Position numbers and translations under genes: made by a program
Shown: piece by piece, positions 3,001 to 27,227 of the stretch
Numbering within the stretch: position 1 is the first letter of the stretch
How the letters are laid out: each line of letters opens with the position of its first letter
Notes under the pieces: model-generated
Database searches by the model: none
Told to the model about the DNA's origin: nothing
What the model saw: the letters and a program-made list of their open reading frames with translations, nothing else
IMG/VR virus record: IMGVR_UViG_3300031565_000257
Span: 1 to 28,940 of that record
DNA length: 28,940 bases
Strand: one strand, 5' to 3'
Source of the DNA: a virus

Positions 3001-3845
3001 ACTTGTCTAGCTACAGTCTGTTGATCAACAACATATAATACTACACAAATAAATTCATCATAATCGGTATCAATACTTTCTATTACAACGTCAAGAGATG
3101 ACGCAGTATTATCATGATTGAAGAGTGCCTGAACATTTGAAGGATACCAATCACTCACCTTTTGACCATTAATAGAATACGCAATAAATACCATGTAAGA
3201 ACCATTAGCTAGTGTTCCACCTGATATACCATTCTGAACTTTAATTTCTGGCTGGCTTACAAGTTTTGCAACCATGATCTTTTCACAGTCTAGTTTATTA
3301 GTATTAGTATATGTAGTACAATTATTAACTGTAGATGATGTAGTAATCCATTTTACAGGGCTATTTGGATTAGTATAAAGATTATTAGTAAAGTCTTCAG
3401 CATCTAAAGAAATAGTACGATCGCTATTCTTTCCATCTGCCCAATATACTTCATAGACACAGTCTCCTGTTGCACGGGAAGTACCTATTATAAGATTGTA
3501 TTTGCTAAATGCAAGACATTCATCTACAACCACTCTCTGGTATTTACACCCATCTTCTTTGAATAATCCTATCTCATGATGATTAAGATCATCTGTAGAA
3601 TAGACAACCCATTTATCAGCTTCTAAATGTATGAAGCCTATGATAGTATGTTCAACGGTAATACATTCTTTGTTACCTGGTTCATTACCTAGTTTACCTA
3701 AATCACCAGTCTTAGAATTATTAATTGCGTTTCTACCATGAGTCCACGAATTCTTAGGAAGATGAAAATCATTAACATCATCGTTAAGCTCTTTATCAAA
3801 TGTACGAGCTTCGGTATTAGAAGTATTTTGTAATCCTTTAGCCAT
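1..3845 (-). CDS. giant conserved tail/virion protein, muzzle- or nozzle-like (3' end outside window)
   Basis: An open frame runs from an ATG at 3845 to the left edge without a stop (about 1,281 codons), so the protein is C-terminally truncated by the window. It begins MAKGLQNTSN. Near residue 30 it has a motif resembling one I remember in large structural proteins of gut Bacteroidota phages (NSWTHGRNAINNSK, then GxLGKLGNEPGN). The rest looks beta-rich, with alternating hydrophobic and Asn/Thr/Tyr stretches and no signal peptide or membrane segment. It follows two connector-like genes, and its ATG overlaps the upstream TAA by one base (TAATG), which suggests coupled translation. In crAss-like phages a protein of this size and place forms the distal tail tube (muzzle). 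That role is inferred from position and remembered resemblance, not shown. The coding frame is certain, the role moderately so. Confidence 0.75.
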   Translation of the reverse strand, partial: MAKGLQNTSNTEARTFDKELNDDVNDFHLPKNSWTHGRNAINNSKTGDLGKLGNEPGNKECITVEHTIIGFIHLEADKWVVYSTDDLNHHEIGLFKEDGCKYQRVVVDECLAFSKYNLIIGTSRATGDCVYEVYWADGKNSDRTISLDAEDFTNNLYTNPNSPVKWITTSSTVNNCTTYTNTNKLDCEKIMVAKLVSQPEIKVQNGISGGTLANGSYMVFIAYSINGQKVSDWYPSNVQALFNHDNTASSLDVVIESIDTDYDEFICVVLYVVDQQTVARQVGTYSTRQKLLAFDIISPTWPAYPIEQLPLITPIVDKSDAMYNVGDYLIRVGPTSKLNFNYQPLANQIVTKWVSVEYPTDYYRKGGNNAGYLRDEVYPFFIRYIWNTGDKTASYHIPGRPAMVIGNPSYPYLSNDLGAPGPEAISGDTFFFETQNTAITTATSQSIQLPDGGVQIAEGYMGYWESIEQYPDDKAEVWDANNPNHPWTAPNNPIYPGSNINPNGDYDICGNKIRHHKFPEEALHPDVELLNPNNKNAIRILGVKFENVRPPVDNDGIPIAGIVGYEILRGSRTGNKTIIAKGIINNMGGVYSIEGNTSTLGLYPNYPYNDLTADPFLSTTPTSQKFSFFGAALGNDGATLQSSYSDIFHTFHSPDTNFTRPYLNAKEMKVYGNIYGNVEGNFRISEEHPKEKLLTNLSFFISAVAGIGISSLAMNGKRTTNYIPPGTPGFSDSEWVPIVDTYAISDTNNPPGTPNVIMGAVTKTSAPIITSPHVADLIAIPAINTLIQTQMSLFNNSWASASLTSGLAGASPASLYTVLNGTVTGLAAGSNAFATSRTEFSQEDSSYGLVPLPIRIAQNVPMFFNYFTQGTDNTLELIRALVPFRDYMLRYDSHAFYNNYMKPTTSPAQRRWLLNDQQYIGPQLVDLKAGFRVNNLNRASTVSIELTQKSGVGILPPGVSDRSRYKVGDVNDSNFRKKPTSYTITGTTGYNGSVPTNNQGNHQVASSHYVGLKQRLRNQYGQLNNIVEINIPSTIVAKTVSFTPVMFGGDTYIGRYTEKNTFFYFYDWLYGQPDGAQFDYNTHRTLLYPRYWANFEQFDTSDFTSTFLGNLLTPSNWITPGEFFNLDGSLFSTLSLSVKNAWGYLFNSGVRDFFVESEINLDLRDWGNEITQQHYDPYRFTNTQTLFDTNNIKADNYYKYDYSLSVTKLFSNYVSWGYMQEPQYDPTLAETCYQYRPRRMIYSLPAQFEGRRDNWLIYLPNNYTDTLSRVTCIKPVNKNGA

Positions 3846-4885
3846 TAGAATCTTGTAATTTGCCCATTAACATTAGCGTTACCAGGGTGCCATGAATATG
3901 AAGCAAACATGTTATAATACTTAGCATACATTGCTTTTCTATTTGTTTCCCACATACGCTTCATCTCAGAGAAGTTAGGAGTATTAACAATACTAAGAGA
4001 TCTTACACGAGCTTCTCTTAATCTAGCTTCTACAATCTGTAGTTTTTGACCAACAGGCTCATCGTTCATAATAAGATTTTCTAGAATTCTTTGCTTGAGA
4101 GCATATTCATAATACTCACTTATCTGATCATGATCTAAGACAAGAAGGTTACCTTCATCATCTTCTAACATCGATTGGAAATTGATATACACTTTACCAT
4201 CTTTAAAGTTGGTATATAAGTATCCGTCTTTTATCCAAGCCTTATTAGGTGTGTTTAAATATAAATTGGGACAATCACAATCTATAGTCTGAGGATTTTC
4301 TAATATTTGAATAGGGTATAATCGCTTATACTCGTGACGAATAGAGTTTACAATTTGAACTAACTCATAACAATCTCCCTTACAATTAAGAAATACTCTA
4401 GGTTTTGTACAATTATCTCCATAAGGAACTAAAGGATTATATGATTCAGAAGAACATGCTGTAGGTATCTGAGGTACAGCACATCCGCATGATGGTGCCG
4501 GCTGCTGACATGTTTGACAGTTAACAGGACCATCTGTACATGTATTTACTACAGAATTAGTTTCTTGATATGGGGGTGTTAACTTTACTTCTTGTATATT
4601 AGTACCTTGTGGTAGGGATTGATTAATCACAACACTGTCACAAATAAGCGCGTAATTAAGAGTATAAAAAGAATCAGGTAATTTTACACGACCTTTCTCT
4701 ACCTCAAGTATTATTTCCTTAGTCATCATAATCCTAAGACCAAGATCGTAGCTGACCTTCTTAGCAACCTTAATAAGTTGTTGAGGCTCTATCATATTCT
4801 GAAGAGATATGTTTTGAAAATCTACTTGGATCTCCGATAAGAGTTGATCAAAGGTTTTGTATTTTGCAGTATAATTATATGACAT
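3845..4885 (-). CDS. conserved ring/tail-tube-like structural protein
   Basis: 346 aa. The N-terminal region (MSYNYTAKYKTFDQLL, then NMIEPQQLIKVAKKVSYDLG at about residues 30-50) and the C-terminal region (QISEYYEYALKQRILENL, then VNTPNFSEM) resemble a family I remember next to the connector gene in gut Bacteroidota phages. Between them, at about residues 110-150, is a Cys/Pro-rich insert (CQTCQQPAPSCGC), followed by scattered Cys pairs that could bind metal or form disulfides. The gene lies between a gp4-like connector candidate and the giant tail protein and overlaps the latter by one base. Upstream, only 4 bases separate it from the 223-aa gene. I read it as a component of the head-tail ring or proximal tail. 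The exact role (ring, hub or tube) cannot be told from sequence alone. Confidence 0.8.
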   Translation of the reverse strand: MSYNYTAKYKTFDQLLSEIQVDFQNISLQNMIEPQQLIKVAKKVSYDLGLRIMMTKEIILEVEKGRVKLPDSFYTLNYALICDSVVINQSLPQGTNIQEVKLTPPYQETNSVVNTCTDGPVNCQTCQQPAPSCGCAVPQIPTACSSESYNPLVPYGDNCTKPRVFLNCKGDCYELVQIVNSIRHEYKRLYPIQILENPQTIDCDCPNLYLNTPNKAWIKDGYLYTNFKDGKVYINFQSMLEDDEGNLLVLDHDQISEYYEYALKQRILENLIMNDEPVGQKLQIVEARLREARVRSLSIVNTPNFSEMKRMWETNRKAMYAKYYNMFASYSWHPGNANVNGQITRF

Positions 4886-4889
4886 CTTA

Positions 4890-5561
4890 TTAGGTTCTTA
4901 AAGGATTCATCTTATCGTCTTGAGTCTCTACTGGAGTTTGTATAAGACCTACTAGTTCAACAAGTACATTTTTCTCTATTTCTGCAAATAGATATTCTGG
5001 AATATGAGTTTGTTCAGATTGTCTAGGTTCACATATATCCCCATCACATAGGAATTCTTGTATACTATCTTCCCATAATCCTTCAATACTAGCAGACTCC
5101 CATTCAACATTAGGAAAGTATAAGTATCCATTAAGATACCAGTAATATTTAGTATTGTTATATTTATAATTAGTACTATTAGCAATAGAAGTATAGGTAG
5201 AAGGGTATGTTTTAAACACCATCTGTGATCCATCTATAGATGAAATGGTACGGAATAAAGGACCATAAGCCCCTTCTAATACTTGAGGGAGTTTCTCCTT
5301 AGTTCTCATAATCTTACAGTTAGATCTAACACCTGAACAACAGGCTTCTATCTTATCTACTTCAATAAGGTCTACACAAGGAAGGGTCTCAAATAAGCTC
5401 TGAAATCTCATGATCTTATTTTCATTATCCTGTCGTCTAATGTAAAGCTTAGCATATTTGATGATAAGACTATATAATAATCGATCTGTAAGGAAGGCAT
5501 CTTCCTTAACACCTTTTACTAAGTTTCTAACTCGTGATATAGTATCGCCAATAGTGGTCAT
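4890..5561 (-). CDS. head-tail connector, P22 gp4-like candidate
   Basis: 223 aa. The first 40 residues are helical and basic (MTTIGDTISRVRNLVKGVKE, then DAFLTDRLLYSLIIKYAKLY), a pattern seen in tail-accessory/connector proteins of the P22 gp4 type, which plug onto the portal and receive the tail. The middle has paired cysteines (about residues 64-76) and an aromatic Tyr/Trp cluster (KYYWYLNGYLYFPNVEW). The C terminus is a helix rich in Glu, Leu and Val. It sits one base after the 192-aa gene and four bases before the ring-like gene, so all are probably on one transcript. Family assignment rests on remembered pattern and synteny with crAss-like phages. Another ring protein is the main alternative. 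Confidence 0.7.
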   Translation of the reverse strand: MTTIGDTISRVRNLVKGVKEDAFLTDRLLYSLIIKYAKLYIRRQDNENKIMRFQSLFETLPCVDLIEVDKIEACCSGVRSNCKIMRTKEKLPQVLEGAYGPLFRTISSIDGSQMVFKTYPSTYTSIANSTNYKYNNTKYYWYLNGYLYFPNVEWESASIEGLWEDSIQEFLCDGDICEPRQSEQTHIPEYLFAEIEKNVLVELVGLIQTPVETQDDKMNPLRT

Positions 5562-5562
5562 C

Positions 5563-6141
5563 TTAATCTATTTTAAATTCATTATAATCTTCAGAAACAG
5601 TAGTATCTCTTTCTAATACATAATACTTCTTAGCAGCTGCTTTATAAACATCCTTGATCTTTGTAAAGTTATCTACCATAATATATCTTTTCCAATTCTT
5701 AGTATACTCTACAGAAGTAGCATTAGTAAAAGACCGATGTCCTTTGAAAGACCACAACTCTCTATCTTTAAATCTAAAGTTATAATTACTATAAAAAATC
5801 TTACATAGATAATTATCAGACTCGAAGTTTCTATGACGTACTCTAGTTTCTAAAGTTATAGATGTTCCAAAATCTACATTATCTTTCTTAGGTCTTTGGC
5901 AGGTACCAATAAACATACATCCTAATTGCTCAGGAAGTTCAACACCATCTCTAGTATTTACAACAGTTTGCCAAATCTCTGTATTAAACGCCTTTATGAT
6001 ATTAGATATCTCAGACAACGTTAATTCAGAATACTCAGGATACTTCTCCTTAAAAGCTTTAACAAACTCCGGAGTCACTAGATGTAGCCTGGAAGGTCGA
6101 TATCTAGGGGCTTTTTTATCTGGAAGTTTAAATGCTTTCAT
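5563..6141 (-). CDS. HU/IHF-like protein candidate, first gene of the tail block
   Basis: 192 aa, strongly basic. After a Lys/Arg/Pro-rich leader (MKAFKLPDKKAPRYRPSRLH) there is a helix-helix region (about residues 23-60) and then a segment resembling the start of the HU arm (VVNTRDGVELPEQLGCMFIG). A basic beta-rich region follows. Crassvirales carry IHF-like subunits beside their gp4-like tail genes, and the neighbour here is such a candidate, which supports the reading. The canonical GRNP tip of HU is not visible and the C-terminal third (KRYIMVDNFTKIKDVYKAAA) is extra, so the fold is inferred. It may bind DNA inside the virion or act as a structural adaptor. It starts a new transcription unit behind the terminator at 6225-6252 and the promoter at 6155-6186. 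Confidence 0.7.
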   Translation of the reverse strand: MKAFKLPDKKAPRYRPSRLHLVTPEFVKAFKEKYPEYSELTLSEISNIIKAFNTEIWQTVVNTRDGVELPEQLGCMFIGTCQRPKKDNVDFGTSITLETRVRHRNFESDNYLCKIFYSNYNFRFKDRELWSFKGHRSFTNATSVEYTKNWKRYIMVDNFTKIKDVYKAAAKKYYVLERDTTVSEDYNEFKID

Positions 6142-13396: not shown

Positions 13397-14779
13397 TTAC
13401 GGTGCAGTATCTGGCACAATAACACAAGGTGTACAATCAAATGTCTCAAATTCAACACAATCTGTACAAGCTGATAACCATGTAGTCATAGCCGCTTCAA
13501 ATGCCGCATTAGCTGTATTTGTAATAACCTCATTCATGTAACGGTCGTTATCAAAAGTACCCGATGGGTTGTTGAAACGAGGAACACTATGTAAGATATA
13601 GTAACGAGTATACAATGCATTACGGTTGATAGCGTTAAGGATATCATCTCCTTGAGTGATCTCTCTTACACGAATATCAGTAGCGAAAAAGTTCTGTAAG
13701 TAAGACTCAGCCTTGATCAAGTCACGAACAACTTGCTCACCAAAGCCCATACCTTGAACACCTAAACAATCGTTGTATACACAAACACCTTCGAATACGC
13801 AAGGATCACCATTGTAATCTACTAATGAAGCATAAATTTTAACTGTTTCTTTCTCGAAGAAATCAGTGCATTGAAAAGAGCAGTTACCAAACTTAGTCTC
13901 AACATACGCTCCGAATAAACGAAGACCTGCATCATTTGCATTAGGAAGTGCACTGTTCCAAGCAAGAGCTTGTACAGATGGACCATATTGATCAACACCA
14001 GCAGCTGTAGACCACCATTCTGCAGGAGTTACAGGAGTTGCTGTTCCATCAAGTGTTACAGTAGTTCCTGGAGCATACCAAGCTACACCAGTGTAGTCAT
14101 AAACTACAGGAGCAACTAAGTCTTTTAAATATGCATTTTCAACTAAAGCCTTAGCCCAAGCTAAGTACACTAATGTAGGATCTACTGCAGTTGGAGTAGG
14201 TCCAGAACAACATCCAGTGTAAGCTGATAATGTTTGATAAGCATTATGATTTAAGAAACGTAATGCAGGAGATCCTTTAATATCAATACGCAAGTAGTAA
14301 GTTTCATCACAAAGGTACTCGAAAGCACAGTTACTCTGAAGCGTTGCTCCTTGGAAATTGTTTACAGGTAAATCAGGAATATCAGTCTGAGGTGTATAAC
14401 CTACAGAAACAACCGCTTGTTGAGGAGTACAAGCATCTACACGGTAGAAGTTTTGTACATACTTAGGGTTGATCATCTTAGACTTGTTAGTCTCTTTGTA
14501 TCCACCATGGTAAGCACCAATCTTATCATTAGCTAGTAATGAAGAAGAGGCTAAGTAAACATTACAACAACTATCGAAAGTTGTCTTTAGTAAGTTTGTT
14601 TTAGGGTCGAATAAACCGAAATACCCTGGAGTTAATCTCGAAAGATCAGCTGTTGAAGTACCTGGAGTAGTTAAAAATCCACCTGTTGAAGCTGGATCTG
14701 ATGGTGTAGGAGCACCTGGGGTTCTCGTAGCACCGTTACCAAGAAACATCTTGGTATAAGCATGATTAAAATAAGCCAT
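13397..14779 (-). CDS. putative abundant virion protein (460 aa), separately transcribed
   Basis: 460 aa, no signal peptide or membrane segment. The N-terminal 60 residues are Gly/Pro/Thr-rich (MAYFNHAYTKMFLGNG...). The body is mixed alpha/beta with scattered Cys, including CC pairs. The C-terminal part is helical (VVRDLIKAESYLQNFF), ending in a Cys cluster (CTDCVEFETFDCTPC). It has its own promoter (14805-14836) and a strong terminator (13337-13379). Compared with neighbouring tail genes it uses more C-ended codons (AAC, TAC, TTC) and CGT for Arg, as the capsid gene does, which suggests very high expression. I infer a second major structural protein, for example a tail, collar or cargo protein. 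I do not recognise the family. Confidence 0.78.
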   Translation of the reverse strand: MAYFNHAYTKMFLGNGATRTPGAPTPSDPASTGGFLTTPGTSTADLSRLTPGYFGLFDPKTNLLKTTFDSCCNVYLASSSLLANDKIGAYHGGYKETNKSKMINPKYVQNFYRVDACTPQQAVVSVGYTPQTDIPDLPVNNFQGATLQSNCAFEYLCDETYYLRIDIKGSPALRFLNHNAYQTLSAYTGCCSGPTPTAVDPTLVYLAWAKALVENAYLKDLVAPVVYDYTGVAWYAPGTTVTLDGTATPVTPAEWWSTAAGVDQYGPSVQALAWNSALPNANDAGLRLFGAYVETKFGNCSFQCTDFFEKETVKIYASLVDYNGDPCVFEGVCVYNDCLGVQGMGFGEQVVRDLIKAESYLQNFFATDIRVREITQGDDILNAINRNALYTRYYILHSVPRFNNPSGTFDNDRYMNEVITNTANAAFEAAMTTWLSACTDCVEFETFDCTPCVIVPDTAP

Positions 14780-14804: not shown

Positions 14805-14836
14805 ATAATATAACGAATTATCTTGGATATTGCAAA
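14805..14836 (-). promoter_or_regulatory. Bacteroidota-type promoter of the 460-aa gene
   Basis: On the minus strand TTTG (14836-14833), exactly 20 bases, then TATATTAT (14812-14805). This matches the Bacteroidota -33/-7 arrangement and is the same design as at 9551-9582. The leader of about 20 bases before the ATG at 14779 is A-rich (AAAAACAAAAAACA) with no Shine-Dalgarno sequence. Confidence 0.65.
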
Positions 14837-14871: not shown

Positions 14872-15405
14872 TTAATCCCCACCCATTTCATTATCTAGGA
14901 ATCTTAAGCCTACTTTATCTTCCCCAAAAGCAGCAAGTTTATCTACCCAAGTTTGGGTTTTATCATGCTCTTCTACTTGTTCTTTTAAGTATCTAAGGCA
15001 AAGTTCATATAACATATGATCACCTTTTTTCATAGCGTCTGTAGCCATAACTTTAATTTGCTTAGTAATCACTATTTCATGTTCAAAAGAAGCTCTGATA
15101 ATTTCAGGTAAACCTTGATAAGTAGAAGGTTGTTTTTCAAGAACAGCTGTTTCAGGAGTTACCCCCATAGATAATAAGTAAGTCCTTGACCAATCAGCAT
15201 GTGTAGCTTCTTCTTTTGAATAAGCTAACCAAAGTTTAGCTGCTCCCATGTATCCTTCATTGTTTAACCACATAGACATGGATAAATAAATTCTAGAAGA
15301 TAAATCTTCTTGTTGTATACGATACTGCAAATATTTAATACAATCTTCACTAATCATTGGATTGTGAGATTTTTTATAAGGTCTTTTTAAAAATTCTTGT
15401 GCCAT
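14872..15405 (-). CDS. phage-encoded bacterial ferritin (FtnA type), ferroxidase-active signature
   Basis: 177 aa. From Met17 onward the protein aligns without shift to remembered E. coli FtnA: Glu33 (FtnA E17), Tyr40 (Y24), Glu66 and His69 in EEATH (E50, H53), Glu110 in FEHE (E94), Gln143 and Glu146 in EQVEEH (Q127, E130). The third iron site also fits: Glu65, Glu142, Glu145. The haem-ligand Met of bacterioferritin is absent, so this is a ferritin. It should oxidise Fe(II) with O2 or peroxide and store Fe(III) in a 24-subunit shell. Residues 1-16 (MAQEFLKRPYKKSHNP) are a basic extension lacking in FtnA. It lies 12 bases after a connector-like gene, on the same strand as the virion genes. Whether it is packaged or acts in the host cell is unknown. 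Start could also be Met17 (15357). Confidence 0.93.
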   Translation of the reverse strand: MAQEFLKRPYKKSHNPMISEDCIKYLQYRIQQEDLSSRIYLSMSMWLNNEGYMGAAKLWLAYSKEEATHADWSRTYLLSMGVTPETAVLEKQPSTYQGLPEIIRASFEHEIVITKQIKVMATDAMKKGDHMLYELCLRYLKEQVEEHDKTQTWVDKLAAFGEDKVGLRFLDNEMGGD

Positions 15406-15417
15406 AATTAATTATAA

Positions 15418-16122
15418 TTAGTTATTTTGTTCTACAGATTGCCCAGCTCTTTGTAATTGATTCATTGATTCAATATCACCAGCTATAATTTTAACAGCCT
15501 CTTCTACAAATAATTCGATTAAGTCTTCCTTAAACTCAGACTGTACATCTGCAGTAGGGGTTATCCCTGTATAAGGATCTGTCACACCGCTAATCTCTAT
15601 TCTCAGAGGCTGACGATAATATGTTAATTGAGTATTTGTTATTTCAAACTCCCCATTAGTGTAGATTTGTATCCTTCCTCCTTTTTGTGTACAAAAAGTT
15701 TCTCCCCACTCATAGCTTGGTTTCTTGTTATTATCTCTAAGTAATTCATCTATGTTAGCTTGTTCTGCCAAATAGATAACAGAAGTTTTTGGCTTCTTAC
15801 AGCAATCCTTAGTCAGTTGAGTAGATACTCTTTTCCACTGTAAATAATTAGCAGGTTTAATATTACTCTCATAAAAAGTCTTACGGTCGGTCATAAATAA
15901 AGGTATGGTAGACAAGAGGACTTCTAAGTCATCAACCCTACGAGTAGACTGTTCGTCACCTTCCTTACTAAGGTTAGTACCGTGTAAGTTTCTACGACAC
16001 CAATCTGTTTGGCCTTTATTAAACGCCTCTACAATTTGCCATGGTTCTATGTTATCATAGTCATTACTGGCTAACTTATTAAGACGTTGTTTTACTTTTA
16101 TTAGAATAGTACTATTAAGCAT
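15418..16122 (-). CDS. conserved ring/connector-like structural protein
   Basis: 234 aa. Residues 1-60 are helical with IEPWQIVEAFNKGQTDWCRR, then HGTN and RRVDDLEVLL. The middle has a KDCCKKPK motif, YLAEQANIDELLRDNNKKPS and an aromatic beta region (LTYYRQPLRIEI, DPYTGITPTADVQSEF). The C-terminal helix (LIELFVEEAVKIIAGDIESM) ends the protein. I remember very similar proteins among head-tail joining genes of gut Bacteroidota phages. The place after the head genes and before the second major structural gene fits a ring or connector protein seated on the portal. Its ATG overlaps the TAA of the 57-aa gene upstream by one base. No catalytic motif is visible. Confidence 0.75.
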   Translation of the reverse strand: MLNSTILIKVKQRLNKLASNDYDNIEPWQIVEAFNKGQTDWCRRNLHGTNLSKEGDEQSTRRVDDLEVLLSTIPLFMTDRKTFYESNIKPANYLQWKRVSTQLTKDCCKKPKTSVIYLAEQANIDELLRDNNKKPSYEWGETFCTQKGGRIQIYTNGEFEITNTQLTYYRQPLRIEISGVTDPYTGITPTADVQSEFKEDLIELFVEEAVKIIAGDIESMNQLQRAGQSVEQNN

Positions 16123-19154: not shown

Positions 19155-20786
19155 TTAGAATGATCCACCAGTGATTGGATTTCTCATTACAATCTTAAGA
19201 ACCTTGGTAGGATCTTTAACCCAGATAGCTGGCATTGTTTGAGTCATCATTACACGGTAACCATTGAACTGTCCACTAGATTGGAACCCTTGAGTTCTTC
19301 CCATGTAGTCCATAGTACCATTTTGATACCACCACTTTAATTGGTTATCCCAAGATAACTTCAACATAAAGATGTTGTCATTACCAGTGTCAGTAATATC
19401 GAAGATCACGTAGCTATAAGAAGACAACGGATGACCATCGATGATTGGGTTTTCGATATCGTTAGTATGTAAGTTATCAAACGCTGGGTTTAATACAAAC
19501 TTAACATTAGCTAAGAAAGGAATTACATAAGATGTGAATGCGAAACCGAAGTTAAGATCCATACCTTTACCAGTGATCGCTCCGATACCACCACCACCGT
19601 CATTACCGGCGTTGATTACTAATCCAGAGTTAACTGCTTCACGCTTGATAGCTTCGTTAACCATTCTCATTCCACCCATACCGGTCTGAACAATAAGCTG
19701 ACGCTTAGGATCTGGACCTTGGAACTCCACACGACCAGCGTAGAAGTTGTATAATTCACCACGGAATAATTCAAGAGTAAAGTTAGACTTATTGTATACA
19801 CGCTTGAATGAGTTGTCTAATTGTTTCCAAAGACCAACTGATAAACGCATATCATCTGGACCATCTTGCTTGATACGTCCACCATGACCCCACATTAAGT
19901 AAGACTCGATGTCAGTAGCAACCTTGGTTAAGTGAGCTGCTTCCATTGTAGTTAAGAAAGTACGTGATAATGTACCGTTAGCTACAGCTTTCTTTAAGTA
20001 ATCTTTACCCATTGTAGATGCTATACCTTCAATAGTAGAGATTGCTGGATCCATAGATTTGTCGTAATTCTTCCAGATCTCAGTTACAGGAACTGTACCA
20101 TCTGCATTCATACCACCTTTGATCATCATATCAGCACGAGAAGATACTGAATAATGTACGTGAGCTTCTGCACCACCTACGTAGTTATAGAATTCACGGA
20201 ATCCAGCTTTTGTCTGGATATCAGAGAAACGCTCACCATATTCTCCACGGGCAGAACCCTTACGGAAAATCTTAGTTTGGTTAGCTAAGTACTTATTATC
20301 TAAGAACTTATAGTTATCATTGTTTACTAATTGTACAGTGTAGATAAAACCATCACCCATAGGTAAGATATCATCTGCAGTAATGTACATCTCACAACCG
20401 TTATACTTGTCATAAGTGATAATATCACCATGTCCAAATTCACGCTTGTTAAGTTTAATTTTGAAGGTTGTACCATCGATACCTTTTGTAAGGTTACCTG
20501 GTTCAATATCTTCGATGATATATGGTAAGTCTTGACTAACCGGAGTTTGCCATTTGTACTCACCACGAGCGTTATCTACCATGATAACATTTTTACCACC
20601 AAAAGATGATAGTTGGTAAAGAGGCATTTCGACCTTCTGAGTCATTGCCCAAATGTCTACTGGACCCATATCCATAGGTTCTGCGTCTTTCAACATGTTT
20701 ACTAAGTGGTATGAATCGATGTGAGAACTAGCGTTGTAGTTAGTGTCACGAAGGAACATACCATTATTCAATACTGGAGTTGCCAT
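19155..20786 (-). CDS. major capsid protein
   Basis: 543 aa. It should build the icosahedral shell, probably with an HK97-type fold as in all Caudoviricetes. The evidence is its place right after portal and scaffold candidates, its typical length, its codon use (many AAC, TAC, GAC, ATC and CGT codons, unlike most neighbours), an A-rich leader (AATCAAAAACA before ATG) and the strong terminator directly behind it. Sequence landmarks are an early segment on capsid contact (MEMPLYQLSSFGGKNVIMVD-like region near residue 53), GQLTK-like E-loop residues near 90-120, a Gly-rich stretch (NAGNDGGGGIGAITGKGMDL) near residue 395, and a hydrophobic beta C terminus. No protease gene or cleavable delta domain is evident, in line with scaffold-based assembly. 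The family is remembered from gut phages; the fold was not computed. Confidence 0.87.
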   Translation of the reverse strand: MATPVLNNGMFLRDTNYNASSHIDSYHLVNMLKDAEPMDMGPVDIWAMTQKVEMPLYQLSSFGGKNVIMVDNARGEYKWQTPVSQDLPYIIEDIEPGNLTKGIDGTTFKIKLNKREFGHGDIITYDKYNGCEMYITADDILPMGDGFIYTVQLVNNDNYKFLDNKYLANQTKIFRKGSARGEYGERFSDIQTKAGFREFYNYVGGAEAHVHYSVSSRADMMIKGGMNADGTVPVTEIWKNYDKSMDPAISTIEGIASTMGKDYLKKAVANGTLSRTFLTTMEAAHLTKVATDIESYLMWGHGGRIKQDGPDDMRLSVGLWKQLDNSFKRVYNKSNFTLELFRGELYNFYAGRVEFQGPDPKRQLIVQTGMGGMRMVNEAIKREAVNSGLVINAGNDGGGGIGAITGKGMDLNFGFAFTSYVIPFLANVKFVLNPAFDNLHTNDIENPIIDGHPLSSYSYVIFDITDTGNDNIFMLKLSWDNQLKWWYQNGTMDYMGRTQGFQSSGQFNGYRVMMTQTMPAIWVKDPTKVLKIVMRNPITGGSF

Positions 20787-22255: not shown

Positions 22256-25027
22256 TTATTTTTTCTTCTTAGACTCTTTCTTTTTAGCTACATCATATTT
22301 GTTTTTATTCTCTTTAGCAATTTGCAAATCTTTATCCTTTAACTGAAGCTGAAGGTTCATCTTTTCTCTTTCTATATTATGCTTATCTTCAGCCATCTTC
22401 ATTTTATTACCCTCTTTAGTTCTATCCATATTCATAGTCTGTTCAAACTCTTGAGTACCTTCCATTCTATCCATAAAGTCTAAGAAATCATTTTGCTGAT
22501 TTTGATTAACATCTTGCATAGCACCATAACCAGCAGCTCTGATCTCAGCAACAAGAATATCTTTTCTTCTATCCTTCTCTTTCTCTAGAACCTCATGATC
22601 TAAGTCCATTTGCTTATCTTTAATACTAGCTTCGATCTCAGCTTGTCTCATACGTTCTTCAGCTTCTCTTGAAGCAGAAGCTTCTTTCTGAGCCTTCTCT
22701 TCTGCAGCTTTCAATACATGATTAAGTTCAGATAATGAATCTGATTGCATAATACTACCAAGATCAAAAATACTTGCACCAGTAGTATTGTTATTCATTA
22801 CTAGTGTTTTCATCTGTTCTACTACCGCTCTATGGTTAGCCTTAGTTGTAGCGAATACATTGATGTCACGAAGTAATAAATCAGTACCGTTAATCTCAAA
22901 GTTAACTTTCTCATCATTAGACGTCATATATTGTAGACGTAATGAAGGTTTAGTAGAATGATAATACTGTGCTAGATCTGTACGCATTTGGTGCACTCTA
23001 GGCATTAAATAATCAGAGTGTTGTATAAAGTACATTTCCGTCTGGGCATAAGATCCTGTAACTGCTTGTTCAATACCTTTAGCTGTCTCTGTCTGTCCTA
23101 TTTGCTGACCTAATCTTTGAGGGGTAATACCAATAGTTTCAAAACACTGTTGTTTAAAATAGTTAGCTAATTGTACTCTAGACATTAATCTACTAGATTG
23201 TTCTAGATCTAATTTCTGAAAAGATTGATTGGCAATTGGATGTTCTGTATTACTAATAGATGTATCTAAAGGTAGAATACCGAAATCTTTCATGGCCACA
23301 TATGCTTTTGCAAAGTTGTTCTTACCCCAATCTTCATCCATTGAATGTCGAGGTAATGAGTTTTGATCTAACATGATTACTGTACCTAGTTCGTCCACTA
23401 GGATATCCGCAATCTGATTGTTAACAATATTATAACCAATTTGGAAAGGTTTCATTAAGTCAACCATAGAGCTAGACTTAGTATTACGATCATTAAATAC
23501 AGCACCTTCTACCGGAAGTTTACAACCATAAAGAGTACTATCACCTTTAAATTGGAACTTAAGAGGACCTATCTTGTTTTGATCAATACCTAAATACATA
23601 GGATTAATACCACCTGGGCTATTCATACCCCAGAAACTTGGTTGATTAGGTCCAATCTTTACACCACCCCATACTTCATTAATATAAATCCAATCGATAT
23701 GTTCTCCTGCTATAAGATTATCTTTAGATTTATTCTTAATAAGAGTTGTATTATAGATAGGTTTATCTGTTACTTTATATTCTTCACTAATAATATCTAC
23801 AATAACCTCACCCTCATCAGTAATCTTAGTAAGGTGTCCAATTTTTCTTTGAGACTTCCAATAAGCTGTAGTTACGCGTAATAAAAAGGCAGCGCCCATA
23901 GGAGCATAATCTTCACTTTCAGACATAATCCACTGTACAATGTCTCCACCATCTTGTATAAAGTTATTATACATAGATGTAAATTGTCTATATGCAAGAC
24001 CTGGCATATCAGTATTCCAATCATGAGACTTAGTAGCATCATAATAAGAACCATCATTTTGATATCCTGTAATAGGATAACCTGCAGATCTTACAGGATA
24101 AATAGCTTCTAAAGACTCTAACTGCTCTTCAGTCATCATATAACCAAACTTATCAATTACATCAGATATAGTCATCATATCTACTTTTCCTATCCAATTA
24201 CCTTGAGAAGTATATCTTACTTCTGGGGACTTGTGGTAGAAAGTAGTCGCTGGGTTCCATAACTCTACTTCATAATCATCTTCCATCATCTTGAAATGCC
24301 AGAACTCTCTATCAGAAATTAACATATCTCTAAAGGCTCTTTCCTCAAGTTCATCCATACCGAATCGGTCTTCGTCAACTTTAAATTGATGGGTGGCCCA
24401 TTGCTCAACTAAACTTCTATAGTCCTTAACAAAAAACTTCTCAATCTCTGGAAGAGATTTAAGATTATCAGGAGCCATTTGCTCTTGCATTTGCTGTTGA
24501 ACCTCTGGACTATTAGGATCTAACCCTTGTTCAATCATACTAGATAACAGCTTTTGCTCAGCTTGTCTAATCAATACCTCTTCTATTTGAGATCTCTTCT
24601 GCTCTAGTAATTCATTATGGGAAAATTCATCCACTCCTCTGAATGTAATCTTCGAATTGCGTTTCGCGAATTCCGAAGTCAACACATTAATAACATTAGG
24701 TATGATAGGATAAAACTTTAACTCTAACGCACTTACATCCTCTTTAGTCAAAGTTTCAACAAGATCCATCATCTCATTATCTTGTTCAAGAATATAATCA
24801 GATTTATCTATTTGACCTTTAGAAAGCTTATAGTTTTTCATAATTCTACGAGCACTCTTACGAAGCTGCTTGAGACCATTCCACTCTAACCAGTCCATAT
24901 TCCAAGCAGTCCACTCTGGATCTTTTTCCTTACGGGGTATGAATTGAATAGGTTGGGTTATAGAACCCATTCTATTATACTCAGCCTTCTTACCTGACTT
25001 GAGCTGCATTGCGTTTAATACTTGCAT
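22256..25027 (-). CDS. portal protein
   Basis: 923 aa, directly after the large terminase (one base between them), the usual place and size of portals in crAss-like phages. It would form the 12-subunit ring at one capsid vertex through which DNA enters and leaves. Residues 30-120 hold the aromatic/basic region typical of the portal clip/wing (DPEWTAWNMDWLEWNGLKQL). Residues 140-190 contain a Gln/Glu-rich helix (SPEVQQQMQEQM). Residues 200-330 show WATHQFKVDEDRFGMDELEE and DREFWHFKMMEDDYEVELWN. From about 765 to the end is a long charged coiled coil (Lys/Glu/Arg/Gln), a C-terminal barrel-like extension inside the head, ending KKKESKKKK. Homology was recognised from memory only. Confidence 0.85.
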   Translation of the reverse strand: MQVLNAMQLKSGKKAEYNRMGSITQPIQFIPRKEKDPEWTAWNMDWLEWNGLKQLRKSARRIMKNYKLSKGQIDKSDYILEQDNEMMDLVETLTKEDVSALELKFYPIIPNVINVLTSEFAKRNSKITFRGVDEFSHNELLEQKRSQIEEVLIRQAEQKLLSSMIEQGLDPNSPEVQQQMQEQMAPDNLKSLPEIEKFFVKDYRSLVEQWATHQFKVDEDRFGMDELEERAFRDMLISDREFWHFKMMEDDYEVELWNPATTFYHKSPEVRYTSQGNWIGKVDMMTISDVIDKFGYMMTEEQLESLEAIYPVRSAGYPITGYQNDGSYYDATKSHDWNTDMPGLAYRQFTSMYNNFIQDGGDIVQWIMSESEDYAPMGAAFLLRVTTAYWKSQRKIGHLTKITDEGEVIVDIISEEYKVTDKPIYNTTLIKNKSKDNLIAGEHIDWIYINEVWGGVKIGPNQPSFWGMNSPGGINPMYLGIDQNKIGPLKFQFKGDSTLYGCKLPVEGAVFNDRNTKSSSMVDLMKPFQIGYNIVNNQIADILVDELGTVIMLDQNSLPRHSMDEDWGKNNFAKAYVAMKDFGILPLDTSISNTEHPIANQSFQKLDLEQSSRLMSRVQLANYFKQQCFETIGITPQRLGQQIGQTETAKGIEQAVTGSYAQTEMYFIQHSDYLMPRVHQMRTDLAQYYHSTKPSLRLQYMTSNDEKVNFEINGTDLLLRDINVFATTKANHRAVVEQMKTLVMNNNTTGASIFDLGSIMQSDSLSELNHVLKAAEEKAQKEASASREAEERMRQAEIEASIKDKQMDLDHEVLEKEKDRRKDILVAEIRAAGYGAMQDVNQNQQNDFLDFMDRMEGTQEFEQTMNMDRTKEGNKMKMAEDKHNIEREKMNLQLQLKDKDLQIAKENKNKYDVAKKKESKKKK

Positions 25028-25028
25028 A

Positions 25029-27227
25029 TTATCTTATATTTTTAAAAGGATTCCTAGGACGCTTTGATCCAGAAGAACCGCTGGTACTTCCAATATTCCG
25101 GAACATACTCTTATTTAATTTATACAAATTTTCTGACTTTTCCAAATGTTTCTTGTCTGTCTTATCTACTCTCTTTTGATATCCACGATTAGCTTGTTGT
25201 ACTTTAGCAAAAGCCACTAATGCTGCTAATGATACTAATCTATCGACATTCAACCCTTCAGTATACTTTTCCATCTCGGTTATGATCATGATATCCGGAA
25301 TTCTTTCTACCCCATATGTAGTTTTAACAACAGTACCATCTTCTTTAGTCTCTTGATCTAACTCTTCTCTTATAAACTCTATCAGATAACTTATCAGATG
25401 GGCCTTAAATAATGTGCCTGTATTTTTCCAACCATACTCCTGGTATACATTCCTATTAGTATTAAGATCTTTTAAGAATAATATCTGATCTTTAGGAACT
25501 AGATACTTCTGTTTCTTTTTAGAAATCATATACATAATAAACAAGGAGATGTTATTCTCGACTATTGTCCATGCATTGTACCATTCTATAATAAGCTCTA
25601 ATCTTTCATGTGTCTTATTAATATCGTCAAATCTACCACACCATGTAGCTACAATCTTATCTTTTTCTATATAGCTTTCAACTTCATGACCGTCTATCTT
25701 AGTAACCTCTATTGGGTTTTTATAGATAATGATAGAGCATAGTGAATCAGAAGTTGTTGTTTTTCCTTCAGATACTGGGTCAATAGATCCATAATAGGTA
25801 CCCCACGGGGCTGTAGCATCTGGTTTTTCATAGACAACCAATACTCCAGATTTATCTTCCATGTTTTTACTGACTGGAAAATCCTTAATAGGTAGTTTAG
25901 TACTTCTTGTAGCCTTGATAGTATTATCAGGCTTTCTCATTAAATCAACATACTCTATAGAATATTCTTTATCTTCTATCTTTCTTTTTTGAGATGCTAC
26001 AAGATGTTGGGGAAATATTGAAACCTCTCTATATGCAAAAGCTTCTGCAATATTACGAGGTCTTTGAGATATTCTTAATTGATATAATTCTGGAGCAAGG
26101 TCTTTCTTCATTTGTATTCTATTCTCATCAAGAGCAGCTAGTGCTTTTTCTACAAGAGAATTTCCAAATTCATCAATATAAGGAGGCATAGACCATTGTT
26201 CAGGAATAAATAATCCAGCTTTTCCTATAGTACCTTTATCATCTATAAGGTTGGTTTCTACAGCATAGATATCATTAACTTCAGGATACTTAATCATATG
26301 CTCTAATGGTTTACATTGATCAAGTTCACCGACTGAACCAGCTGCTGCAAATAATCCTGTAACTATATCTCCCATTTGTAATGCTGGTAGCAAATACTCC
26401 TTGGTCTTATCCATGGTTGGTGCTATACCCGCCTCTTCATAAAAGAATAATCTACAATCTCCACCGACACCTGCTGTAGGATCCTTCTCTAAAGTTACCC
26501 CTTGAATAGTTCCCTTGTTACCAACTAATTCAGGACGACCATTAATAGTCTCTTCAATCTGTTGTTGCCACATTAAAATTTTACTAGGATTCATAGGACG
26601 ATACCATGCAGTCTTACTATTTAAGAATGATCTATACTCGTCTAAAAACTTCCAGGTACCTTTCTCATTAATCTTATCTTTTAAAGATGACCCCATCTTG
26701 ATGATAGGTGTTTCTTCAAACCATATAAGATTGATCATCTTAGCTGCATGAAAATAAGAGGAGGCTATCTGACGTTTCTTAAGAATGGCTACATGTTTAT
26801 AATGTAATTCAGCTAATAACTCATATAATGCCATGTGATACTGAGTATCCCATATTTGAGGAAACGCGAATTTTCTTTTAAGCTTATCATTGATAGGTAA
26901 GAAATTAATCCACATATAGTAATCTCTAGTTAGATACCAGGTCTTACCATTAGCCTTAAAGATTAACCCTCTTCTACACTTATTTTTTTCTTCATCCCAG
27001 AAATCTCTATAGTCTTTTGTTCCTTCTTTAAATCCACAATAGTAACCAAGTTCATTATATTTATTGGCCATAGCACTCCATTCATGAGTACTTTTATCAA
27101 ACTCGTATTTACCAGGCTCTTTAAAGAGAGGTAATACGAAATCTATAAAATCTTCTCTAGTATTAAAGGTAACATTAGACCACACCCCTTCATCATACAT
27201 TGGTACTACTATAAATGGTTCCATCAT
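25029..27227 (-). CDS. terminase large subunit (packaging ATPase-nuclease)
   Basis: 732 aa. It cuts concatemeric DNA and drives it into the head through the portal. The ATPase domain has a non-classical Walker A (KKRQIASS, residues 150-157) and Walker B plus catalytic Glu in CRLFFYEEAG (about 258-267). The nuclease domain has the expected three acids: Asp483 in GSIDPVSEG, Glu557 in TIVENN, and Asp662 in NVDRLVSLA. The N-terminal 110 residues (TWYLTRDYYMWINFLPI) are typical of the long terminases of crAss-like phages. The ATG overlaps the TAA of the 76-aa gene by one base. The first of two adjacent Met codons is taken as start. A separate small subunit is not recognisable; the 171-aa gene upstream is a candidate. 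Confidence 0.92.
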   Translation of the reverse strand: MMEPFIVVPMYDEGVWSNVTFNTREDFIDFVLPLFKEPGKYEFDKSTHEWSAMANKYNELGYYCGFKEGTKDYRDFWDEEKNKCRRGLIFKANGKTWYLTRDYYMWINFLPINDKLKRKFAFPQIWDTQYHMALYELLAELHYKHVAILKKRQIASSYFHAAKMINLIWFEETPIIKMGSSLKDKINEKGTWKFLDEYRSFLNSKTAWYRPMNPSKILMWQQQIEETINGRPELVGNKGTIQGVTLEKDPTAGVGGDCRLFFYEEAGIAPTMDKTKEYLLPALQMGDIVTGLFAAAGSVGELDQCKPLEHMIKYPEVNDIYAVETNLIDDKGTIGKAGLFIPEQWSMPPYIDEFGNSLVEKALAALDENRIQMKKDLAPELYQLRISQRPRNIAEAFAYREVSIFPQHLVASQKRKIEDKEYSIEYVDLMRKPDNTIKATRSTKLPIKDFPVSKNMEDKSGVLVVYEKPDATAPWGTYYGSIDPVSEGKTTTSDSLCSIIIYKNPIEVTKIDGHEVESYIEKDKIVATWCGRFDDINKTHERLELIIEWYNAWTIVENNISLFIMYMISKKKQKYLVPKDQILFLKDLNTNRNVYQEYGWKNTGTLFKAHLISYLIEFIREELDQETKEDGTVVKTTYGVERIPDIMIITEMEKYTEGLNVDRLVSLAALVAFAKVQQANRGYQKRVDKTDKKHLEKSENLYKLNKSMFRNIGSTSGSSGSKRPRNPFKNIR

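Follow-up and report, generated by a model that had tools for sequence, protein, structure and literature searches.

A ferritin gene in the virion operon of a crAss-like phage alternates with a Dps-like gene behind a shared N-terminal tail

A ferritin gene located within the head and tail operon of a crAss-like phage was found to occupy a fixed slot that, in related phages, has been swapped repeatedly with genes of the DUF5856 family behind the same short N-terminal tail, a pattern suggesting that iron chemistry contributes to the making or the protection of the virion. The sequence analysed here (the window, meaning the whole stretch of 28,940 nucleotides) is a linear virus record of 28.9 kb and carries a head/tail operon of crAss-like type. 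An earlier note on this DNA had recognised an FtnA-type protein with an intact site in a virion operon, and that part of its interpretation stood; the sharing of the slot with a Dps-like protein bearing the same tail had been missed.

The ferritin gene is a complete frame on the minus strand, an orientation left unstated in the earlier note:

14872..15405, minus strand, FtnA-type ferritin of 177 aa, with ferroxidase A and B sites and third site complete

The deduced protein matched the Pfam Ferritin family PF00210 above its curated cut-off (E=1.5e-19), and a PDB sequence search returned bacterial FtnA-type chains as the closest solved ones (V. cholerae 3qz3, 2.6e-20; E. coli FtnA 1eum, 3.5e-18). 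The AlphaFold2 model (mean pLDDT 87) consists of a four-helix bundle plus helix E, with helices at residues 20-50, 53-79, 99-127, 130-160 and 164-176, and it fitted the V. cholerae structure 3qz3 with TM values of 0.88/0.94 and an rmsd of 1.0 Å (superposition; Foldseek). The metal-site residues are E33, Y40, E65, E66, H69, E110, E142, Q143, E145 and E146; the A/B di-iron ligands and the third (C) site match those of E. coli FtnA, and all ten residues were invariant in the 54 distinct phage ferritin homologues (54/54). The phage protein thus shares with the FtnA proteins of E. coli and V. cholerae the five-helix fold, the di-iron ligands, the third site and the equivalent of Tyr40, whereas it differs from them in being only 28-34% identical to the best cellular proteins found, in its extra N-terminal tail and in being encoded by a virion-operon gene.

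Purifying selection on the gene was evident from a median dN/dS of 0.077 in 43 pairs of phage ferritins with at least 80% identity, and this value, together with the invariant metal sites, rules out a relic gene. A chimeric or contaminating origin was also discarded because many independent crAss-like contigs of IMG/VR show the ferritin gene in the same place, after the connector gene and before that of the 460-aa protein. Altogether, the window gene is, by its sequence and predicted fold, an FtnA-type ferritin, catalytically competent as judged from its intact predicted sites, and would be expected to form a 24-subunit shell with ferroxidase activity. These results agree with what the earlier note had proposed, namely a complete FtnA-type ferritin (now recognised by Pfam, PDB sequence search and predicted fold) with all the di-iron ligands, the third site and Tyr40 at the positions given there, and probably an active ferroxidase and not a relic (dN/dS ~0.08). 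The note had also named three findings that would speak against it, a fold other than a four-helix ferritin, loss of the ligands in relatives and a contig chimeric at this gene; the predicted fold is that of a ferritin, the ligands are kept in all 54 relatives, and the same gene order is repeated in many contigs.

The genomic context of the ferritin gene is that of a crAss-like virion operon, whose features in the window are as follows:

25029..27227, minus strand, terminase large subunit (phrog_6681, 1.3e-57)
22256..25027, minus strand, portal protein (phrog_6547, 3.2e-93)
19155..20786, minus strand, crassvirus major capsid protein (MCP), used as tree marker (PF23898 Crass_capsid, 6.7e-30)
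15418..16122, minus strand, conn, a connector/tail-barrel ring-like virion protein (phrog_29507, virion structural protein)
14807..14836, minus strand, promoter-like element of p460, TTTGCA-N18-TATATT (consensus match)
13397..14779, minus strand, p460, a 460-aa protein downstream of the slot (synteny in 237 loci)
4890..5561, minus strand, tail ring protein 2 (PF25702, 1.9e-19)
3845..4885, minus strand, tail ring protein 1 (PF24228, 1e-7)

The genes are arranged in the order TerL, portal, scaffold-like protein, Crass_capsid MCP, conn, ferritin, p460, further structural genes, ring 2 and ring 1. Ring 1 is followed, at the left end of the window, by a long open frame in the position of the muzzle gene of crAss001. 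The presence of MCP, portal, TerL and several tail rings, in an order collinear with that of phi4:1 and crAss001, places the window in the Crassvirales. The conn gene lies 12 bases upstream of the ferritin gene and is the invariable upstream neighbour of the slot. Its product gave hhalign probabilities of 97-99% with phi4:1 gp062, with the 'ring protein' of csAssE-Sib and with its counterpart in Lbo-JY46. In Cellulophaga phage phi4:1, mass spectrometry confirmed both the orthologue gp062 and gp061, encoded by the following gene, as virion proteins. By gene order, conn corresponds to the crAss001 tail-barrel ring proteins gp34/gp35, and p460, which follows conn, holds the position of phi4:1 gp061 and of the crAss001 capsid auxiliary protein gp36 (position only). 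These crAss001 assignments rest on gene order because the profiles do not prove them: the hhalign comparisons of conn with gp34/gp35 (E 0.015 and 0.002; probability 3% and 14%) are suggestive only, and p460 was linked by profile solely to its Lbo-JY46 counterpart (hhalign 92.6%), with no link to gp36. Searches by sequence found no solved homologue of conn or p460. The earlier placement of the ferritin between a connector-like gene and a second structural gene is consistent with this arrangement. As for other elements of the operon, sequences like TTTGCA-N18-TATATT are kept before p460 in relatives; the Bacteroidota-type promoter box TAnnTTTG was enriched, in comparison with shuffled sequences, upstream of p460, the scaffold gene and p192; and the p192 family (window 5563-6141) occupies the place that the IHF-like gp42 has in crAss001.

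Four query proteins (ferritin, conn, MCP and DUF5856) were used to gather relatives of the window from IMG/VR. The ferritin gene was found directly between conn and p460 in 99 of the 100 loci having both ferritin and conn. When ferritin is absent, the same gap of ~450-590 bases is usually filled by a DUF5856 gene, a few phages carry both genes in tandem within the slot, and in some the slot is empty, with 73-98 bases. Among the loci with p460 in reach, the occupant was ferritin in 86, DUF5856 in 149, both in 3 and none in 13, figures that do not measure prevalence, the loci having been fetched with those four queries and some contigs being repeated.

The slot DUF5856 proteins belong to PF19174 (1e-13 to 1e-18) and phrog_858. 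They showed a profile match to Dps/NapA proteins in the PDB (2.6e-5), and their model is a four-helix one whose best matches are Dps proteins, with a weak Foldseek E value of 5e-3. Residues H49, H61, D76 and E80, with the spacing of the Dps ferroxidase site (H-x11-H-x14-D-x3-E), were invariant in 56 of 56 distinct sequences. On sequence and model grounds, the alternative occupant is thus a predicted Dps-like mini-ferritin, a different ferroxidase from FtnA. This family is already known from phages, since T4 rI.-1/MobD.6 and LIMEstone1 ORF78 (PF19174/phrog_858) are also phage-encoded members of the ferritin superfamily, and it is its crAss-like members that fill the slot of the ferritin; in contrast to the window ferritin, PF19174/phrog_858 is another family, of mini-ferritin type. 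Neither the LKR tail described below in DUF5856 proteins outside the slot nor an exchange with FtnA in known isolates was seen. In phages, phrog_858/PF19174 proteins are widely named 'starvation-inducible transcriptional regulator', a misleading name for a Dps-like ferroxidase family (T4 rI.-1/MobD.6), and the present result corrects this annotation of DUF5856. The neighbourhood of these genes is recurrent: other crAss-like lineages carry ferritin and/or DUF5856 directly after the portal gene (loci L022 and L044-L047), and so does, with DUF5856, the unrelated Manatee Spring podovirus MW202483.1 (L239:4034-4396).

The place among virion genes, fixed in all but one of the ferritin and conn loci, could also indicate that the ferritin fold is a structural decoration of the particle with incidental metal sites. 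We consider this very unlikely, as the metal sites are invariant in both occupants, 54/54 for the ferritins and 56/56 for the Dps-type site of DUF5856, and the slot alternates between two folds whose cages are expected to differ in symmetry. Cages of 24 subunits (ferritin) and of 12 (Dps type) are unlike in size and symmetry and hardly fit one rigid structural site; therefore, what the slot keeps would be the tag and Fe(II) oxidation, and not a structural brick.

In 7 of the 139 distinct phages the slot was empty and no PF00210 or PF19174 match occurred elsewhere in the record, and the function would therefore be dispensable in some hosts. No Mn-catalase, rubrerythrin or other ferritin was found in the same records of the empty-slot phages (records that may be fragments), and Mn-catalase was likewise absent from 19 records of the crAss-like clade. 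Rubrerythrin matches regarded as candidates for compensation turned out to be the ferritins themselves.

The history of the exchange was followed on a tree of 139 distinct MCPs with four slot states. The distribution of these states needs 27 changes on the tree, and the strongly supported branches alone force 12-13 of them. In sister phages with unlike occupants the DNA similarity runs from the end of conn across the start codon and the tail codons, disappears in the core and returns in the AT-rich leader of p460. The conservation of tail and leader on both sides of a divergent core indicates that the exchangeable unit is the core, whose right-hand border is the promoter-like element at 14807..14836; the AT-rich leader is common to ferritin- and DUF5856-bearing sister phages.

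The tail that precedes the core in the window ferritin comprises the following features:

15358..15405, minus strand, ferritin N-terminal tail, MAQEFLKRPYKKSHNP, residues 1-16; outside the ferritin fold and modelled with low confidence
15379..15390, minus strand, core of the tail motif L-K-R-P, residues 6-9; shared with the slot DUF5856 proteins

Cellular FtnA proteins begin at about residue 17 of the window ferritin, and residues 1-8 of its AlphaFold2 model have pLDDT <50. In both occupants the motif consists of a hydrophobic residue, K-R and one further residue, usually P, N, D, T or E; the linker behind it varies in sequence and length (~5 to 45 aa). Of the distinct proteins encoded directly after conn, 37 of 47 ferritins and 91 of 93 DUF5856 proteins carried the motif, the remaining 10 of the 47 slot ferritins having only degenerate tails. 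The motif was found in 0/10 distinct phage homologues placed elsewhere, either next to portal or terminase or second in a tandem, and in 7 of 1286 distinct N-termini from the other gene families of the window. The p192 family has a conserved N-terminus of its own, (F)-K-K/R-P-D-x-x-A-P-R-F-R, which is faintly LKRP-like.

A shared tail at the edge of a recombining core may have no function at all and be a homologous 5′ end retained because recombination takes place just past the start codon. The sister pairs, in which the DNA similarity ends just behind the tail codons, are compatible with this possibility, and so is the preferred spelling of the tail, TTAAAAAGA, which exceeds the codon-usage bias of the genome, most of all in DUF5856 genes. 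However, the motif stays while the linker behind it changes, it is lost from genes that stand elsewhere than behind conn, and its synonymous spellings in the ferritin genes are numerous (CTCAAAAGA, CTAAAGCGC, TTGAAGCGA and others). The diversity of spellings argues for selection acting on the peptide, and we regard a functionless tail as unlikely. In the DUF5856 genes, the more uniform spelling may reflect a DNA- or RNA-level element.

These observations led us to propose that the slot encodes an exchangeable ferroxidase cage, made with the virion genes and docked through its tail to the virion or to an assembly partner, which removes Fe(II) and peroxide and protects the phage DNA, a proposal for which we see about even chances. 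The ferritin would be made late, together with the virion proteins, and would assemble into a 24-subunit cage with its N-termini outward. In ferritin and Dps cages the N-termini lie on the outside of the shell, so the tail could dock the cage to a partner; the hydrophobic-K-R-P/N/D motif and its flexible linker would then bind the cage to the virion or to an assembly partner; the likeliest target is a protein encoded by a neighbouring gene, the ring-like conn or p460. The docked cage, which could thereby be present in the virion, would oxidise and sequester Fe(II) with O2 or peroxide, and hydroxyl radicals would be kept from forming beside the phage DNA during packaging or in the particle. In other members of the clade the same need would be met by the 12-mer-type DUF5856 protein behind the same tail. 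Proteins of this superfamily have been detected in virions of other phages: the DUF5856 homologue ORF78 of LIMEstone1 by mass spectrometry, with 3 peptides and 28% coverage (PMC3296691), and a ferritin-like protein in CsCl-purified virions of the Vi01-like phage Sajous1 (PMC10892097). LIMEstone1 is an unrelated myovirus whose DUF5856 gene does not adjoin a ring protein. The Sajous1 virion 'ferritin', gp217, is a ferritin-like protein but, unlike the window ferritin, it was identified by Phyre2 at 22% identity, comes from a myovirus and is not FtnA (PMC10892097).

An antioxidant role confined to the infected cell has to be weighed against docking. Free ferritin would store iron and lower Fenton chemistry late in infection, its place in the virion operon would serve merely for late expression, and the tail would direct localisation or bind DNA, in the manner of the basic N-terminus of E. 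coli Dps. The detoxification of Fe(II) is common to FtnA and Dps, the tail of the window protein is basic (LKRPYKK), and T4 and most T4-like phages carry their DUF5856 homologue (rI.-1/MobD.6) outside the virion gene block; in addition, DUF5856, Dps-like proteins and Mn-catalases of other phages have been read in this way (PMC8008677). On the contrary, the short motif depends on position, being confined to the gene behind conn and lacking in homologues at other places in related phages, many DUF5856 tails are of mixed charge and no polycation, and a DUF5856 homologue is present in LIMEstone1 virions. We therefore give this alternative substantial but minority credence.

The earlier note had also raised the 'Ferrojan horse' idea, in which an iron-loaded cage on the particle engages host iron uptake, as well as iron starvation of the host by the cage. 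Such a reading has been put forward for phages whose virions contain a ferritin-like protein, although infection by Vi01-like phages of this kind was independent of TonB or FeoB (PMC10892097). Furthermore, ferritin iron lies inside a closed shell and ferritin is no siderophore ligand, the slot adjoins genes of head/tail-barrel type and no fibres, and a receptor ligand would fit the exchange with a 12-mer Dps-type protein less well than Fe(II) oxidation does. The idea found no support here and is extremely unlikely in our opinion.

If the tail does dock the cage, it may act as a cargo-loading peptide, with an FtnA- or Dps-type nanocage loaded into or onto the HK97-fold head or the tail barrel, in parallel to encapsulin and ferritin; this more specific version is tentative and somewhat unlikely. 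Encapsulin systems consist of an HK97-fold shell and a ferritin-like cargo with a short targeting peptide. No encapsulin gene was found here, and the tag is N-terminal, whereas that of encapsulin cargo is C-terminal; the likeness is a resemblance and no membership, and loading into a capsid is hypothetical in this phage. Known crassvirus particles contain large cargo zones in capsid and tail (PMC10172136).

Regarding the origin of the gene, a quick tree placed all the phage ferritins on one side of a fully supported branch with respect to 86 cellular or contaminating sequences. A mixed-profile scan of genome contigs retrieved only relatives of 28-34% identity, mostly from Gammaproteobacteria, and the phage profile, scanned against genome contigs, gave no match. 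The distance of these cellular relatives and the supported phage branch rule out a recent acquisition from a host, and the capture would therefore be old; its exact cellular origin is unsafe to read from a sequence tree with long branches.

No true phage homologue of the window ferritin was found among 50,697 phage records, nor was FtnA described in crassviruses in the literature searched, in line with the earlier statement that no characterised case was known. Two GenBank entries from human faeces labelled 'Bacteriophage sp.', MT838721.1 (L243) and MT836766.1 (L244), carry a ferritin with bacterial-looking flanks and were discarded as probable bacterial chromosome fragments. The literature on phage relatives covers Dps and Mn-catalase in gut phages: those of 'Gratiaviridae' and other gut phages of Bacteroides are also oxidative-stress enzymes of the ferritin superfamily but, unlike the window ferritin, the 'Gratiaviridae' ones are described as metabolic, with no FtnA, virion slot or tag (PMC8008677). 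Phage-encoded proteins of the ferritin superfamily are thus already known, and the novelty lies in the FtnA lineage, in a slot that is fixed, in its exchange with DUF5856 and in the tag common to both. Such genes are usually classed as metabolic extras of phages. Two ferroxidase families that trade one virion-operon slot behind one tag, with their catalytic residues kept, allow the testable claim that virion assembly or survival in this large phage group intrinsically requires the oxidation and storage of iron, with a peptide linking enzyme to particle. If this is true, a catalytic cage would be added to the known crassvirus cargo, as an independent viral counterpart of encapsulin-ferritin compartments.

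With respect to the host, Shine-Dalgarno-like sequences preceded only 31 of 1310 gene starts in the clade, a near-absence that is usual for Bacteroidota, and a Bacteroidota host is plausible on this sequence evidence. Judged by portal, MCP and TerL scores, the closest isolate was Leptolyngbya phage Lbo-JY46 (PP438436.1, L240), a crAss-like phage deposited with a cyanobacterial host that has Shine-Dalgarno-like sequences at 1 of 32 starts in the region checked; it may in fact infect a Bacteroidota bacterium accompanying the cyanobacterium in culture. The gut-anaerobe setting assumed earlier was not supported, as no gut crassvirus record carries the ferritin gene and nothing ties the gene to the gut. 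Finally, the 135.9-kb record IMGVR_UViG_3300042526_000402 (L282, L314) contains two DUF5856 genes, near both of its ends, which may represent a terminal repeat, an assembly overlap or two real copies.
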